The position numbers and the translations under genes are program-made. 64,000 bases of DNA, from positions 130,447 to 194,446 of the forward strand of contig CAJNCS010000006.1 in NCBI GenBank assembly GCA_905221325.1, in the 5' to 3' direction. Each line of letters starts with the position of its first letter. Within the stretch, counting starts at the first letter, position 1. Source of the DNA: a bacterium (lineage in GTDB: Bacteria > Bacillota > Bacilli > Lactobacillales > Streptococcaceae). Positions 22,363-36,249 of the stretch are shown one piece after another. The notes beneath the pieces are model-generated. The model searched no databases, was not told where the DNA came from, and worked only from the letters and a program-made list of their open reading frames with translations.

Positions 22363-22701
22363 ATGAACTATATCATCATCCAAAAAGAGAAAGAAATTTT
22401 CAAATTAAACATAAAGGATATCTACTATATCCAAACGCATCCAAGCAAAGCCCATACCATGCATATTGTTACAGAAAACGCTAGCTTTGATCTATTTCAA
22501 AATTTAAGTAATCTTGAGAAACAATATGGGGAAACCTTAACGAGATGTCATCGAAATTGTCTGGTTAACCTTGAACAAGTAAGATCCATGGATATCCAAT
22601 CAAAGACCCTCTTTCTTGGAGAAGAAGGTCAATATGCTGTCAAGTATGCCAGACGTCGCTATAGAGAGATTCGTCAAAAATGGTTGAAAGAAGGAGAGTA
22701 A
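22363..22701 (+). CDS. blpS: BlpS, LytTR DNA-binding protein
   Basis: A 112-residue protein consisting almost only of a LytTR DNA-binding domain (NIKDIYYIQTHPSKAHTMHI ... CHRNCLVNLEQVRSMD ... YARRRYREIR), without a receiver domain. In pneumococcal blp loci blpS stands first in blpSRH and is thought to modulate regulon expression; its exact role is not settled. AGGAGG lies before the start, and blpR begins four bases after the stop. The operator at 22275-22306 makes the operon part of the autoinduction loop. Confidence 0.9.
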   Translation: MNYIIIQKEKEIFKLNIKDIYYIQTHPSKAHTMHIVTENASFDLFQNLSNLEKQYGETLTRCHRNCLVNLEQVRSMDIQSKTLFLGEEGQYAVKYARRRYREIRQKWLKEGE

Positions 22702-22705
22702 GAAG

Positions 22706-23443
22706 ATGAGAATATGTGTTTTAGAAGATGATTTTTCCCAACAAGCTAGGATTGAAACGACGATTGAGAAACTCTTGAAGAAACATTATATCACTCCCAG
22801 CTCTTTTGAAGTCTTTGGCAAGCCAGATCAACTGCTGGCAGAGGTGCATGAGAAGGGAGCACATCAGCTATTCTTTTTGGACATTGAGATTCGAAATGAA
22901 GAAATGAAAGGTCTGGAAGTGGCTAGAAAGATTCGGGATCGGGATCCTTATGCCCTGATAGTCTTTGTGACGACTCACTCGGAGTTTATGCCCCTCTCCT
23001 TTCGCTACCAAGTGTCTGCTTTGGACTACATTGATAAGGCCCTTTCGGTAGAGGAGTTTGAATCTCGGATTGAGACAGCCCTTCTCTATGCCAATGGTCA
23101 AGATAGTAAAAGCCTGGCGGAAGATTGCTTTTACTTTAAATCAAAATTTGCCCAATTCCAATATCCTTTTAAGGAGGTTTACTATCTCGAAACGTCACCC
23201 AGACCCCATCGTGTTATTCTCTATACCAAGACAGACAGGCTGGAATTTACGGCGAGTTTAGAGGAGGTTCTCAAGCAGGAACCCCGTCTCTTGCAGTGCC
23301 ACCGCTCCTTTCTCATCAATCCAACCAATGTAGCTCGTTTGGATAAAAAAGAAAAACTCCTTTTCTTTCCCAATGGTGGAAGCTGTCTGATCGCGCGTTA
23401 TAAGGTCAGGGAAGTGTCTGAGGCTATCACTAACTTGCACTGA
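22706..23443 (+). CDS. blpR: Response regulator BlpR
   Basis: A 245-residue response regulator of the AgrA/ComE class. The receiver domain covers about residues 1-125 with acceptor Asp in FFLDIEIRNEEMKG (D58 region) and conserved Lys in YIDKAL. The LytTR DNA-binding domain covers about 145-245 (YLETSPRPHRVILYT ... CHRSFLINPTNVARLD). When phosphorylated by BlpH it should bind the 21-nt-spaced repeats upstream of the blp promoters. It is part of blpSRH, four bases after blpS and 13 before blpH. Confidence 0.95.
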   Translation: MRICVLEDDFSQQARIETTIEKLLKKHYITPSSFEVFGKPDQLLAEVHEKGAHQLFFLDIEIRNEEMKGLEVARKIRDRDPYALIVFVTTHSEFMPLSFRYQVSALDYIDKALSVEEFESRIETALLYANGQDSKSLAEDCFYFKSKFAQFQYPFKEVYYLETSPRPHRVILYTKTDRLEFTASLEEVLKQEPRLLQCHRSFLINPTNVARLDKKEKLLFFPNGGSCLIARYKVREVSEAITNLH

Positions 23444-23456
23444 GCTAGGAGAGTTT

Positions 23457-24797
23457 ATGTATATTGTTTGGATATTGTTGTATACACTTGTTTCTAATGG
23501 ACTAGAAATTGTCATTTTCTTTAAGGTAGATGGAATTGATCTTACTTTCGAGAGGATTTTTAAGGCCTTTCTTTTTAAGATACTGTTGGCCTTTGTTTTT
23601 GTAATGATTAGCTATATAGTAGGAAATACTTACCTATCTTATTTTATGGAACCCTTGTATGGCATAGGCTTATCTTTCTTATTGTTAAGAGGGCTTCCTA
23701 AAAAACTCCTTTTCTTTTATGGTCTCTTTCCAATGATATTAGTGAATCTCTTTTATAGAGGAGTTTCTTATTTTGTGCTTCCATTTTTGGGGCAAGAGCA
23801 AGTATATAATGACTACTCATTTACTGGGTTATGTATCATAATTTTCAATTTCTTCATTTCTCTAGCCTTTTTGAAATGGTTGGACTATGATTTTACTAAC
23901 TTGAGAAGGGAGATCTTAGATAAAGCCTTTCAAAAGTCCCTGACTCATATTAACTGGATAATGGGGGCTTACTATTTGGTTATACAAAGTCTGTCCTACT
24001 TTGAATATGAACAGGGGATTCAATCAACGACTGTTCGCCATCTCATCCTAGTGTTTTACCTACTCTTTTTTATGGGGGTTATCAAGAAGCTGGATACCTA
24101 TTTGAAGGACAAACTTCATGAGAGATTGAACCAAGAGCAGGACTTGCGCTATAGAGATATGGAACGCTATAGTCGGCATATAGAGGAACTTTACAAGGAA
24201 GTACGGAGCTTTCGCCATGACTACACCAACCTCTTAACAAGCTTACGTCTGAGTATTGAAGAGGAGGATATGGAGCAGATAAAAGAGGTCTACGACTCCG
24301 TCTTGAAGGAGTCCAGTCAGAAATTGCAGGACAATAAATATGACATTGGACGATTGGTGAATGTTCGGGACCGTGCCCTTAAAAGTCTCCTAGCGGGAAA
24401 ATTTCTAAAAGCTAGAGAAAAGAACATTATCTTTAATGTCGAAGTTCCTGAGGAGATTCAAGTCGAGGGGATGAGCCTACTTGATTTTCTAACCATTGTG
24501 TCTATCCTTTGTGACAATGCTATTGAAGCCAGTGCAGAGGCCAGTCAACCTCATGTTTCAATCGCCTTTTTTAAAAATGGGGCACGGGAGACCTTTATCA
24601 TTGAAAACTCCATCAGAGAAGAGAGCATAGATATTTCTGAAATCTTCTCCTTCGGAGCAAGTTCTAAAGGGGAGGACCGAGGAGTTGGTCTCTATACCGT
24701 CATGAAGATTGTGGAAAGTTATCCCAATGTCAGTCTCAATACCACCTGTCAAGATCAAGTCTTTCGTCAGATGCTTACTGTGATACATGCAGAATGA
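23457..24797 (+). CDS. blpH: Pheromone receptor histidine kinase BlpH
   Basis: A 446-residue HPK10-type kinase. Six or seven membrane helices fill about residues 1-205, a dimerisation segment carries the phospho-acceptor in VRSFRHDYTNLLTSL, and the ATPase domain has the N-box LCDNAIEASAEAS and G-box GEDRGVGLYTV. It senses exported BlpC and phosphorylates BlpR. It starts 13 bp after blpR with AGGAGAG before the ATG, and is closed by a terminator shared with blpC. No frameshift is visible, so signalling should be functional. Confidence 0.95.
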   Translation: MYIVWILLYTLVSNGLEIVIFFKVDGIDLTFERIFKAFLFKILLAFVFVMISYIVGNTYLSYFMEPLYGIGLSFLLLRGLPKKLLFFYGLFPMILVNLFYRGVSYFVLPFLGQEQVYNDYSFTGLCIIIFNFFISLAFLKWLDYDFTNLRREILDKAFQKSLTHINWIMGAYYLVIQSLSYFEYEQGIQSTTVRHLILVFYLLFFMGVIKKLDTYLKDKLHERLNQEQDLRYRDMERYSRHIEELYKEVRSFRHDYTNLLTSLRLSIEEEDMEQIKEVYDSVLKESSQKLQDNKYDIGRLVNVRDRALKSLLAGKFLKAREKNIIFNVEVPEEIQVEGMSLLDFLTIVSILCDNAIEASAEASQPHVSIAFFKNGARETFIIENSIREESIDISEIFSFGASSKGEDRGVGLYTVMKIVESYPNVSLNTTCQDQVFRQMLTVIHAE

Positions 24798-24799
24798 TA

Positions 24800-24840
24800 A
24801 AAAATAAGACCGAGAGTGATTGTTTCTCGGTCTTATTTTT
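24800..24840. terminator. Bidirectional terminator between blpH and blpC
   Basis: AAAAATAAGACCGAGA (24800-24815) and TCTCGGTCTTATTTTT (24825-24840) pair perfectly over 16 bases. The right arm touches the blpC stop codon. Confidence 0.92.
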
Positions 24841-24995
24841 TATAGTTGTATTGGCTGATGAAGTCCTTTCGTATTGTTATACTTAATTATATTAAGACCA
24901 TATAAGATATCTTCCCACCATCCTCCACCTGTGATTTGATTGAGTTCAGTAGTTGTTAGTTCTTGAAATGAAGTTAGGTTTTGATTCTTATCCAT
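24840..24995 (-). CDS. blpC: Peptide pheromone precursor BlpC
   Basis: A 51-residue precursor: MDKNQNLTSFQELTTTELNQ followed by ITGG, a double-glycine leader, and a 27-residue mature peptide beginning GWWEDILYGLNII and ending GLHQPIQL. The mature part resembles the long BlpC pheromone types of pneumococcus, especially the one I remember from TIGR4, with several substitutions. AAAAGGAG precedes the ATG. It is the last gene of blpA-blpB-blpC: BlpAB should cleave and export it, and BlpH should sense it. Confidence 0.93.
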   Translation of the reverse strand: MDKNQNLTSFQELTTTELNQITGGGWWEDILYGLNIIKYNNTKGLHQPIQL

Positions 24996-25051: not shown

Positions 25052-26413
25052 TTAATCAGAATGTGTTAAAATTTTATCTTTGAAGTAATCAAAATATGTT
25101 TTCTTTGCAGTTACACTAGTAACGCGACCTTGTAAGCCATATTGGATGAGCTTACTGTCTTCGTTAGATAGTTTTGCAAGAGCGGTTAATTTAAAGAGAT
25201 TTCCTTGCTCTGTTCTGGTCGGAGTTTGATCAATTGTCTGAAGTTGGCCGATGATGGTAATGCCGTGATTTCCAATCTTCTCCAGTTTTAATCTTACAGT
25301 TTGTCCTTTATCTAGTAGCGGTAGATAGTCAGAAGATACGTAGTAAGTGATTAGTACTTCTCTTGTATCTGTGATGACAGGGAATATTTGAGCAATTTCT
25401 GTACCAGTTGGAATTCTATTTTTACCTTCAAATTCGCTGTTCAGATGAACGATACCTTTACTTGGAGCGGTTAAAGTATTATTTTCTAAGCGCTGTGTCG
25501 CTTGATCTAGCTGTACTTTTAATTCTGTTAATTGGTTCTCCACGGTTAGTTGCTGTTGTGAGGCTGTCTGTAAAAACTGAGTGCGAAGTACTTCAATTTT
25601 AGTTTCTAAACTATTATCATAAGTTGCTACACTTCCAATCCCAGCTTGCTGAATTTTGAGGCTTGCGATAGATGATTCAAGACCTGCAATACTTTGATTT
25701 ATTTGAGATAAAAATGGCTCCTCTGCAGTTCCTTGTGTTTGTCCTTGTGAGGTTACAAGATAACGATTTAAAATTGACTGGTGCGGATTGCCAGTTGGTA
25801 AGCGTACTCTTTTATTTATGATAGCATCTCTCAGTTCTTCATATTCTCCAATTTGTTGTTGAACTTTTGTAATTTCTTGTTCGATGGCTGATGAACTGCT
25901 ATTGGCAAGATTAGCTTGATTTGAAACCTCGGTGTTAGTCTTTGTGATACCCAGTTCAATATCACGAGCTTGTTTGGTAAAATTCATAAAGGTATTATGG
26001 TAGCCAAATTCATCCTCGCCAGAAAAAAGATCAGTCGCTTTTTCTAAGCTTTGTTTCAAAATTCCAAGTCCTTCTTTTTGCTTCTCAAGTCTTTGTAATT
26101 GAGTTTCTAAGGCAGTTTTCTGACTTTCTTCCATTGTTTCAGAGTATTTGATAAGTAAGTCCCCTTTTTCAACTACTTGATTTGCCACTAAATGATTAGC
26201 AAGGATAGGATTATCACTGGTTGACTGAATGGATGCAATGACACTTGTAGGGGCGATTTCTCCTTGGGAAGTAACAGTAATTTCTTTTGTGGCAACAAGG
26301 GAGAAAATCAAGATGAAAGTAAACAGTAATGAAAGAGGTATAATTAACACTGTCGCATAGTTATGGTAACGTCTCTGATAAAACTCGACGCTTCTAAAAA
26401 GATTAGGATTCAT
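25052..26413 (-). CDS. blpB: Bacteriocin/pheromone export accessory protein BlpB
   Basis: A 453-residue HlyD/ComB-type membrane-fusion protein. The N-terminal membrane segment (about 20-42, LIIPLSLLFTFILIFSLVA) is followed by a biotinyl-lipoyl-like half motif, a long coiled coil (about 95-330) and a C-terminal beta domain containing TAPSKGIVHL. It assists the BlpA ABC transporter in secretion of pheromone and bacteriocins. The ATG has AAGGAG upstream and sits ten bases after the blpA stop. Full family length (ComB 449), with no interruption. Confidence 0.94.
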   Translation of the reverse strand: MNPNLFRSVEFYQRRYHNYATVLIIPLSLLFTFILIFSLVATKEITVTSQGEIAPTSVIASIQSTSDNPILANHLVANQVVEKGDLLIKYSETMEESQKTALETQLQRLEKQKEGLGILKQSLEKATDLFSGEDEFGYHNTFMNFTKQARDIELGITKTNTEVSNQANLANSSSSAIEQEITKVQQQIGEYEELRDAIINKRVRLPTGNPHQSILNRYLVTSQGQTQGTAEEPFLSQINQSIAGLESSIASLKIQQAGIGSVATYDNSLETKIEVLRTQFLQTASQQQLTVENQLTELKVQLDQATQRLENNTLTAPSKGIVHLNSEFEGKNRIPTGTEIAQIFPVITDTREVLITYYVSSDYLPLLDKGQTVRLKLEKIGNHGITIIGQLQTIDQTPTRTEQGNLFKLTALAKLSNEDSKLIQYGLQGRVTSVTAKKTYFDYFKDKILTHSD

Positions 26414-29920: not shown

Positions 29921-29986
29921 CAATTCAAGACGTTTCGATGACAATTCAAGATTTGGATGAAAAATTTTAAAAAACAATGATATACT
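29921..29986 (+). promoter_or_regulatory. BlpR operator and promoter of the class IIa cassette
   Basis: CAATTCAAGA at 29921-29930 is repeated exactly at 29942-29951 (21 nt spacing). TATACT lies at 29981-29986, 40 bases after the second repeat begins. Confidence 0.9.
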
Positions 29987-30041
29987 AAACTTGTCAAGGT
30001 TGCAACAGGACAAAAATTAAAAATAAAAAGGAGTATTTGTC

Positions 30042-30263
30042 ATGAATGCAAAAATGATGTCACAATTTGAGGTTATGGATACAGAGATGCTTGCGAGTAA
30101 AGTAGGAGGAAAAACAATATATTACGGTAATGGTTTATATTGTGATAACTCTAAAGGTTGCTGGGTAAACTGGCCTGAAGCTATAAATAAAATTCTTACT
30201 AATTCTATTGTTAATGGATTTTCAGGTGGGAATGCAGGTTGGAATTCGGGGGGACCTCTATAA
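30042..30263 (+). CDS. Pediocin-like (class IIa) bacteriocin precursor
   Basis: A 73-residue precursor with a Blp-type leader (MNAKMMSQFEVMDTEMLASK, VGG) and a 50-residue mature peptide starting KTIYYGNGLYC. The YGNGL box, the cysteine pair, WVNW and the C-terminal GGNAGWNSGG are hallmarks of class IIa peptides, which target the mannose-PTS of Listeria, enterococci and relatives. Five residues (DNSKG) lie between the two Cys, where the class IIa peptides I recall have four. The leader is that of the neighbouring Blp peptides, so BlpAB should export it. The immunity gene overlaps the stop. Confidence 0.93.
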   Translation: MNAKMMSQFEVMDTEMLASKVGGKTIYYGNGLYCDNSKGCWVNWPEAINKILTNSIVNGFSGGNAGWNSGGPL

Positions 30264-30559
30264 TGAGAGGTTTAAAGTGGTTTTCTGGAGGAGTTGAAAG
30301 ACGCCGTGAAGCTATCATCATATTAGAAAAACTTATTCAAAATATAAAATGTGATTCTCAACTTCTCCCTTTGAAAAATATATTGATTTCTTACGAATAT
30401 GAATTAAAGAAAGGAAGTATATCGATTCCTTATACCCTTAGTAGAATGAACATTGAAATTTCGAATGTATTAATTGAAAATGCACTACATTTGTCTGAAA
30501 TTCAGTCTGATCAGATAAAAAAATTAAGAGAATTATCTAATATTAGATATGGATACTAG
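30263..30559 (+). CDS. Class IIa bacteriocin immunity protein
   Basis: A 98-residue protein starting MRGLKWFSGGVERRREAIIILEKLI, helical throughout and without a membrane segment, as in the four-helix immunity proteins (enterocin A immunity family) that guard the mannose-PTS from class IIa peptides. Its ATG overlaps the bacteriocin TAA (TAATG), so the two are translationally coupled. The open frame extends eight codons further upstream into the bacteriocin gene, but that start is not needed. Family assignment rests on the N-terminal motif, length and position. Confidence 0.85.
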   Translation: MRGLKWFSGGVERRREAIIILEKLIQNIKCDSQLLPLKNILISYEYELKKGSISIPYTLSRMNIEISNVLIENALHLSEIQSDQIKKLRELSNIRYGY

Positions 30560-30721: not shown

Positions 30722-30949
30722 ATGAATACAAAAATGATGTCACAATTTAAGATTATGGATACTGATATGCTCGCTTGCGTTGAAGGTGGAGATACAGTAG
30801 GGGCTGGAGAAGTTGTTCAAGCATTGGGAGTTTGTACAATAGGAGGTGCAGCTCTGGGGAGTGTTATCCCAGTTGTGGGAACTCTTGCTGGAGGGATTTT
30901 AGGAGCACAGTTCTGTACAGCAGTTTGGGGAGCTTTGAGGGCAAGTTAA
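30722..30949 (+). CDS. Blp-type class II bacteriocin (Gly-rich, two Cys)
   Basis: A 75-residue precursor. Leader MNTKMMSQFKIMDTDMLACV-EGG is followed by a hydrophobic, Gly/Ala-rich mature peptide beginning DTVGAGEVVQALG with repeated GxxxG-like spacing (GGAALGSVIPVVGTLAGGILG) and two Cys (CTIGG, FCTAV). Such peptides insert into membranes, often in pairs. AAAAGGAG precedes the ATG. It heads a cassette with 31091-31465 and perhaps 31471-31689. Its promoter carries a degenerate BlpR site, so induction may be reduced. Confidence 0.87.
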   Translation: MNTKMMSQFKIMDTDMLACVEGGDTVGAGEVVQALGVCTIGGAALGSVIPVVGTLAGGILGAQFCTAVWGALRAS

Positions 30950-31470: not shown

Positions 31471-31689
31471 ATGGAACAATCAGTCAATAATTTCTTCATT
31501 TTATCCGATGAAAAACTAACAACGATAACAGCTGGTGATAAACAACTTGCAGATGCATTTTTAAGTGGAGTAGGTGGTGCAGTTGAGGGGATTTCGCTTT
31601 GTATGCAGACAATCCCTTTTCCAACTCCTCAGATTTATTTGATTTGCGCAGCTGGTGGGGCAGCAGCTTCAGTTTTATGGCCACATTAG
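31471..31689 (+). CDS. Bacteriocin-like peptide with an Ala-Gly processing site
   Basis: A 72-residue peptide. The leader differs from the other Blp leaders (MEQSVNNFFILSDEKLTTIT) and ends AG rather than GG, still compatible with C39 peptidases. The mature part, starting DKQLADAFLSGVGGAVEG, is Gly/Ala-rich with two Cys. A GTG at 31462 overlapping the previous stop is an alternative start; neither has a strong ribosome binding site. It could be the second peptide of a two-peptide bacteriocin with 30722-30949. The unusual leader suggests a different origin. Confidence 0.68.
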   Translation: MEQSVNNFFILSDEKLTTITAGDKQLADAFLSGVGGAVEGISLCMQTIPFPTPQIYLICAAGGAAASVLWPH

Positions 31690-32341: not shown

Positions 32342-33031
32342 ATGAAAAAGTATCAGCTTCTATTCAAAACAAGTGCAATTTTATCCTACCTATTTTTCGT
32401 ATTTGGTCTTTCTCAGCTGACGCTTATCGTCCAAAACTATTGGCAATTTTCTTCTCAGATAGGCAATTTATTCTGGATTCAAAATATCTTGAGTTTACTT
32501 TTTATTGGAGTCATGATTGTGGTTCTTGTTAAGACAGGCCATGGTTATCTCTTTCGCATTCCAAGAAAAAAATGGCTTTGGTATTCGATTTTGACAATAT
32601 TAGTGGTAGTGTTCCAGATCTCTTTTAACGTTCAGACAGCTAAACATGTTCAGTCAACTGCGGAAGGTTGGGCTGTATTGATTGGTTATAGTGGGACTAA
32701 CTTTGCAGAGCTAGGTATTTATATAGCCCTGTTCTTTCTGGTTCCACTGATGGAAGAGTTAATCTATAGAGGATTACTGCAACACGCTTTCTTTAAGCAT
32801 TCGCGATTTGGTCTTGATTTGCTTCTTCCTTCTATTTTATTTGCTCTCCCTCATTTTTCAAGCCTGCCTAGTCTGTTAGATATCTTCGTCTTTGCAACAG
32901 TTGGAATCATCTTTGCTGGTTTGACCCGCTATACCAAGAGCATTTATCCATCCTATGCGGTGCATGTGATTAATAATATTGTAGCGACATTACCATTTTT
33001 GCTGACTTTTTTACACAGGGTATTTAGCTAA
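32342..33031 (+). CDS. blpY: CPBP family intramembrane metalloprotease (BlpY-like)
   Basis: A 229-residue membrane protein, seven or eight helices, with the CPBP (Abi/CAAX) motifs: EELIYRG (about residue 139), FALPHFSS (about 172) and HVINNIV (about 215). In pneumococcus BlpY is needed for full bacteriocin immunity, though its substrate is unproven. It starts with AAAGGAGG and its own BlpR-type operator. Its last codons (GVFS, TAA) and the following 300 bases are repeated at 34.4 kb, the footprint of a recombination event. Confidence 0.85.
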   Translation: MKKYQLLFKTSAILSYLFFVFGLSQLTLIVQNYWQFSSQIGNLFWIQNILSLLFIGVMIVVLVKTGHGYLFRIPRKKWLWYSILTILVVVFQISFNVQTAKHVQSTAEGWAVLIGYSGTNFAELGIYIALFFLVPLMEELIYRGLLQHAFFKHSRFGLDLLLPSILFALPHFSSLPSLLDIFVFATVGIIFAGLTRYTKSIYPSYAVHVINNIVATLPFLLTFLHRVFS

Positions 33032-35185: not shown

Positions 35186-35251
35186 CAATTCAAGACGTTT
35201 CGATGACCATTTAAGATTTAGATGAATTTGTAATTTTAAATAAGGTAAGAT
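35186..35251 (+). promoter_or_regulatory. BlpR operator of the wall-anchored thioredoxin-like gene
   Basis: CAATTCAAGA (35186-35195) and CCATTTAAGA (35207-35216) are 21 nt apart. TAAGAT at 35246-35251 is at the -10 position. Confidence 0.82.
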
Positions 35252-35280: not shown

Positions 35281-36249
35281 ATGAAGAAACAAAAGATAAA
35301 ATCGCTATTACTTGTACCACTTGTATTTGCATCTATTATTACAGGTGTTGTATATGCAGAAGAGCAGACTACTTCTTCCTCTATACAGACTAATGATAGT
35401 TCTCTTGTGGCACCAGATTTACCATCGACTAAGGAAAATATGGAGCATAAATCTTCCGTTGTGACTCCCGAAGAGTATGAACAGAATGTTGAGAACTTTA
35501 AAAAGATAGATATTGAAGCTGTACGTCAATCTTTTACAGAGGATCAATTGGAACATACCATTTATTTTGGTAGAAAAACTTGCTCTCATTGTCGTCAATT
35601 TTCTCCTGAATTGAAAGAATTTAATAACTTGATTGAAAAGAAGTTAGAGTATTATGATTTGGATGGCAAAGATTTTGATGGGGAGGCGAGAGAGTTTCTA
35701 TTTAAAAAAGTCGGGATTCCAGGAACACCAACAATTTTGTATTTAAGAAACGGACATCCGATATCTGGATGGGTTGGTGGGGGAGCGACTGCACAACAGG
35801 TTTATGATTATATGTACTCTAGAAACTCACCTAAGCAAACGGAGACAGTGGCATCTTCTGAGGATACAGTAACTGGAAGTGTCCGTGATGATAAAACAGG
35901 AGAGGTGAAGAATTCAAAGGAAAATTCGACTAATAACAGTGATAACAGAGAGCCATTGAAGAATAATATTCCTCATTCTGACACTATAACTGTTCAGTCT
36001 GAAGATTTGGTAATGATAGATAAGAAGAAGCAAGGGGAGTCATCTCAGACGATTTCTGAAAATACTGAGAAGTTACAAACTCCTTTATCCAAGGTTGAGG
36101 GGAATGATTCTCCCTCCAAAACCAGTCATTTGAGTAAACAATTACTACCTAATACAGGAGTGGAAGAAAGTTACAATCTATTACGTCTAGCGGTTGCACT
36201 CTTAATTACTTCAGGTATGATTAAGTGGAGACAAAGAATTCATAAATAA
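35281..36249 (+). CDS. LPXTG-anchored thioredoxin-like bacteriocin accessory protein
   Basis: A 322-residue secreted protein. The signal peptide (residues 1-26, ending VVYA), a Ser/Thr-rich linker and a thioredoxin-like domain (about 60-180) with active site [12 protein letters not shown] (CSHC) and the cis-Pro loop [11 protein letters not shown] are followed by a polar repeat-poor region. LLPNTG stands near residue 290, then a hydrophobic segment and a basic end for sortase. The domain matches the 'bacteriocin transport accessory protein' group, which is usually not wall-anchored. Controlled by a BlpR operator, it probably supports disulphide formation in exported bacteriocins. Confidence 0.85.

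Follow-up and report, generated by a model that had tools for sequence, protein, structure and literature searches.

The window analyzed here, a stretch of 64,000 nucleotides (64 kb) of contig CAJNCS010000006.1, belongs to a mitis-group-like Streptococcus whose nearest genomes are 96% identical in nusA DNA. Within its blp locus, two overlapping genes at positions 30042–30559 form, we are highly confident, one BlpR-driven bacteriocin–immunity unit, the whole mechanism proposed below included. The peptide is an existing member of the class IIa bacteriocins and is identical to a published peptide of Streptococcus dentisani. Neither the peptide nor this type of arrangement is new to the literature, and the novelty lies mainly in the corrected class of that published peptide, which comes from a probiotic strain.

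Gene 1 (30042–30263, forward strand) encodes a 73-residue double-glycine precursor with a mature peptide of 50 residues, and its stop codon shares one base with the start codon of the immunity gene (TAATG). The coordinates, reading frames, overlap, mature sequence, and 98-residue immunity gene were all as the initial annotation of this DNA had described them. The class IIa family PF01721 matched the precursor with an E-value of 6.9e-10 (39.2 bits; cut-off, 24.5), and the sequence matches of the peptide in the PDB were enterocin HF, sakacin P, and curvacin A; the E-values of both searches rule out a chance match. The pediocin box YGNG(V/L) occurs near the mature N-terminus, in KTIYYGNGLYC, and the mature part also carries CX5C and WVNW. 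Cysteines C34 and C40, between which a disulfide is predicted, were invariant in a chosen alignment of 49 rows, and the predicted fold is that of class IIa, a three-stranded sheet followed by a helix. Several streptococcal relatives are named “leucocin A/sakacin P family class II bacteriocin” by NCBI, and in NCBIfam neither the bacteriocin nor the immunity protein was matched at E ≤ 1. Separately, one metagenomic protein (P0010) is a frame of 161 residues in which a class IIa precursor and an immunity protein are fused.

The immunity protein matched PF08951 (EntA_Immun) with 26.3 bits against a cut-off of 22.1, which, together with the TAATG coupling to the bacteriocin gene, identifies it as a class IIa immunity protein. 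Its PDB matches were the immunity proteins for mundticin KS (2zrr, E = 8.9e-22) and piscicolin 126 (2k19, E = 6.4e-21), members of the same family that matched over 98 and 96 of its 98 residues, respectively. These two differ from the window in host, mundticin KS being from Enterococcus and piscicolin 126 from Carnobacterium. The initial claim was borne out on all four points: the bacteriocin and its immunity gene are of class IIa (PF01721 and PF08951), the leader is of the Blp type, and the operator, an exact repeat, is of the BlpR type.

That repeat, which we take to be a BlpR box, was sought on both strands of the whole window with up to four mismatches. Six sites had at most one mismatch (28739, 29923, 33153, 34537, and 35188 on the forward strand and 28672 on the reverse strand), and all six lie inside the blp locus, at 28.6–35.2 kb; every other listed site had three or four mismatches. 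The geometry of the operator was the same in four named mitis-group-like relatives (L018–L021), with one mismatch in L018, and the 37-bp spacing between repeat and TATACT was found in all five loci compared, the window among them. The BlpR-type operator and blpRHCBA occur in one locus, as in a blp unit (Table 1). According to excerpts of a 2025 study, BlpR-binding sequences occur in the blp loci of S. mitis/oralis, and BlpC induces most of the blp genes tested in other strains of these species (PMC11921387).

Table 1. Features of the bacteriocin–immunity unit and of the surrounding blp locus (window positions).
Feature	Position	Strand	Basis
BlpS-like LytTR protein	22363..22701	+	PF04397, E 1.7e-18
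BlpR-like response regulator	22706..23443	+	Response_reg and LytTR
BlpH-like histidine kinase	23457..24797	+	GHKL domain
BlpC pheromone precursor	24840..24995	-	NF033215, E 4.7e-34, above cut-off
BlpB-like secretion accessory protein	25052..26413	-	TIGR01000, E 4.1e-122
BlpA-like ABC transporter for peptide cleavage and export, in an uninterrupted frame of 719 aa	26424..28583	-	TIGR01193, 1112 bits; PF03412 C39 peptidase
BlpR-type operator, ATTCAAGA-N13-ATTCAAGA, repeats at 29923 and 29944 (21 bp apart)	29923..29951	+	exact match
Putative -10 box TATACT, 37 bp downstream of the second repeat's first base	29981..29986	+	spacing
Putative ribosome-binding site GGAG	30030..30033	+	read off the sequence
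Double-glycine leader, 23 aa, MNAKMMSQFEVMDTEMLASKVGG	30042..30110	+	sequence; weak PF10439 match
Mature class IIa bacteriocin, 50 aa and stop codon	30111..30263	+	PF01721
EntA/PisI-type immunity protein, 98 aa	30263..30559	+	PF08951, 2zrr, 2k19
Thioredoxin-like protein	35281..36249	+	PF00085, E 1.4e-6; operator at 35188, 1 mismatch

The published twin is ORF37 of Streptococcus oralis subsp. dentisani 7746, a dental probiotic (AB-Dentisanium), printed in Table 2 of a 2019 paper (PMC6476965). All 50 mature residues are identical to those of the window peptide, and the leaders differ at 3 of 23 residues. In the excerpts of that paper, ORF37 is labeled not as class IIa but as a BlpJ ortholog and one of nine BlpIIb-like bacteriocins, and ORF36, an immunity gene there, is said to be identical to an enterocin A immunity gene. 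Judged by its sequence, the probiotic peptide printed as a class IIb-like BlpJ is a class IIa bacteriocin, so activity dependent on the mannose phosphotransferase system (man-PTS) is worth looking for. Among the 11 bacteriocins printed for the 7746 cluster, ORF37 included, ORF42 and ORF50 have identical counterparts in the window, ORF45 has one of 96% identity, and ORF34 has 82% identity over 38 residues only; the remaining six went unmatched there at E 1e-3. The two loci therefore have part of their content in common. The window gene at 31474–31689 (forward strand) has its C-terminal 36 residues identical to ORF42, called “bovicin-like,” and matched no Pfam family above cut-off.

The initial annotation had regarded a pheromone-controlled class IIa peptide in a blp locus as unusual. 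This view does not hold, because the identical peptide was printed for 7746 and InfE of S. infantarius LP90 was published in a similar cluster. By its own criterion, its reading would be refuted if close homologues had been published as standard members of blp loci, and this is partly the case, in that the 7746 twin appears in print as an ortholog of BlpJ. In the excerpts of PMC7058333, InfE is assigned to subclass IIa and is followed by an immunity protein of 98 residues; its multi-bacteriocin cluster further contains genes for BlpJ/BlpK-like peptides, for a response regulator and a kinase, and a member of the ComC family. That this cluster is of the blp type is our own reading of that paper. 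Compared by eye, InfE differs from the window peptide in its four-residue loop (NANK) and at several positions past WVNW. The mitis-group examples join this earlier case, in which a blp-like pheromone cluster contains a class IIa peptide. Ubericin A of Streptococcus uberis is the first characterized streptococcal class IIa bacteriocin, according to a review (PMC3546714, excerpts). Its mature part (P0044) shares 65% identity over 49 columns with that of the window, including YGNGLYC, CWVNW, and GGNAGW, but its loop has four residues, and the whole precursors are 51% identical in the alignment. Angicin and ubericin K, also streptococcal and from pheromone-controlled loci, are of the bovicin 255/garvicin Q kind and not class IIa, as excerpted descriptions state. 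The class IIa terms tried were unmatched in three papers on mitis-group bacteriocins (PMC5729180, PMC6722419, and PMC11921387), and no paper that calls ORF37 or the window peptide class IIa was found in the open-licence library searched, outside which lie subscription papers and supplementary files.

The loop between the two cysteines has five residues (DNSKG). Excerpts of PMC3546714 give four residues for “most” class IIa peptides, a length that is usual but not defining, and the window peptide departs from it. We analyzed loop length in 120 class IIa homologues (in one underlying search, the best 120 of 135). The loop could be read by a motif pattern in 107 of the 120 listed homologues, with four residues in 85, five in 21, and three in 1; the other 13 were unreadable. 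Three of the 21 five-residue loops belong to near-copies of the window peptide (P0001, P0002, and P0004), and others occur in S. henryi, S. caballi, Streptococcus sp. ZJ373, P0022 (named from S. merionis), and P0100 (named from Liquorilactobacillus). A single origin of this loop appears unlikely from a tree built with 49 precursors, that of the window plus 48 from the 120 homologues, although it has few columns and an unsettled bootstrap: the tree requires nine changes of the five-residue label (shuffled mean, 13.8), and its starred branches force at least four. These results suggest several changes of loop length. The five-residue loop, on which the initial annotation had remarked, is a real variation but a recurrent one and not singular to this peptide.

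In analyzing the distribution of the unit, we found PF01721 in 16 of 284 Streptococcus genomes, all 16 of which also had a match to the immunity protein. A rough limit for the mitis group, at a nusA identity of ≥ 89%, enclosed 100 genomes (the next genome had 84%), and 6 of these contained PF01721. The operator lies upstream of the bacteriocin gene in all six (L001 and L006–L010; one mismatch in L008). The remaining 11 PF01721 loci, covered with flanks of at most about 1.5 kb per side, lacked it at up to two mismatches, as did three longer loci (L022–L024), from S. henryi, S. caballi, and S. gallolyticus. Within the set of loci examined, this type of operator is therefore limited to the mitis-group-like ones. 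A scan that yielded 15 related loci in all gave four named carriers at 95–96% identity: S. pseudopneumoniae 843, S. oralis subsp. dentisani Y_5914_11, Streptococcus sp. oral taxon 431 S46, and Streptococcus sp. Marseille-Q5986. The immunity protein is more widespread. Proteins 95–99% identical to it occur in the same six mitis-group-like genomes, and some match was present in 50 of the 100; outside the six carriers, it was a more distant relative, mostly of ∼57% identity. In total, 44 of the 100 genomes had an immunity-like gene without any PF01721 match, and one of these (G096) had a partial match with an internal stop. At locus L044, one such immunity gene of the EntA type (1498–1800) adjoins a CAAX protease gene whose product is 92% identical to that of 32342–33031 in the window.

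We also compared, with transfer in mind, the identity of the cassette to the window with that of the other shared stretches of the blp locus. In L018, the cassette was 90.9% identical against 92.4% for the regulatory/export part; in L020, the corresponding values were 93.6% and 89.8–94.3%. Against the other shared stretches, the values were 96.2% and 93.9–99.6% in L019, and 95.4% and 77–94% in L021. An origin from a mobile element was rejected: the peptide had no match in 50,697 phage records and a single distant one, of 45% identity and from Leuconostoc, in 72,556 plasmid records.

Three other explanations were considered. The peptide could make up half of a class IIb (two-peptide) Blp bacteriocin, the class under which its twin was labeled in 2019 (PMC6476965, excerpts); the Blp-type leader and five neighboring precursors that match PF10439 (Bacteriocin_IIc) above its cut-off are in keeping with this. 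On the peptide itself, however, PF10439 stayed below its cut-off (17 bits against 27.1, E = 0.0058) and covered residues 6–33, mostly leader, whereas PF01721 exceeded its own. As the mature part also has YGNG, CX5C, and WVNW and is predicted to fold like class IIa peptides, and as a class IIa immunity gene of its own overlaps the bacteriocin gene, we consider a class IIb peptide extremely unlikely. It is also highly unlikely that the peptide is a non-functional relic retained for its immunity gene. Defense alone does seem to be retained in the 44 genomes with immunity-like genes and no PF01721, and P0002 is a copy with an altered C-terminus, but no mature residue differs from the S. dentisani copy, the five mitis-group-like precursors compared (window and L018–L021) all have 73 residues and no inner stop, and the promoter geometry is kept.

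The remaining explanation concerns regulation. The comCDE genes of strain 7746 lie far from its cluster, and the authors concluded that competence regulates expression there (PMC6476965, excerpts). In the window, blpRHC-like genes are present in the same locus, and the operator is the repeat common to the other blp promoters, so that a unit driven mainly by competence (ComE) instead of BlpR is very unlikely.

In the BlpR-driven unit that we favor, BlpC would be sensed by BlpH, and BlpR would thereby be activated and turn on the promoter at 29923. BlpAB would then export the precursor and cleave it past the double glycine, as the leader and the C39 transporter suggest, and formation of the disulfide may be aided by a co-regulated surface thioredoxin. 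By analogy with the family, the mature peptide would adopt a three-stranded sheet closed by one Cys–Cys bridge and a helix, bind the man-PTS of the target, and open a pore like other class IIa peptides, whose typical target is Listeria, while the co-transcribed immunity protein would shield the producer via the peptide-occupied man-PTS. A broader proposal, which we regard as unlikely, is that the mitis-group peptides with a five-residue loop are a BlpC-controlled branch of class IIa, that the loop shifts man-PTS recognition from Listeria/Enterococcus towards other oral streptococci, and that orphan EntA-type immunity genes protect against them.

The thioredoxin-like protein encoded at 35281–36249 is a possible disulfide helper, linked to the peptide only by the shared kind of operator and the locus. 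It matched the PedC/BrcD family TIGR01295 with E = 6.4e-19 and 68 bits, below the cut-off of 120, and a C-terminal LPXTG anchor (PF00746) with 17 bits, below the cut-off of 20. In S. gallolyticus, a bacteriocin with a disulfide depends for its killing on a surface thioredoxin of the gallocin locus (PMC10100652, excerpts), and the window protein, perhaps surface-anchored, may correspond to BlpT of S. gallolyticus. On the forward strand between 29944 and 32244, the operator scan listed no repeat with four or fewer mismatches, and the Blp peptide gene at 30722–30949 (forward strand) is without an intact operator.
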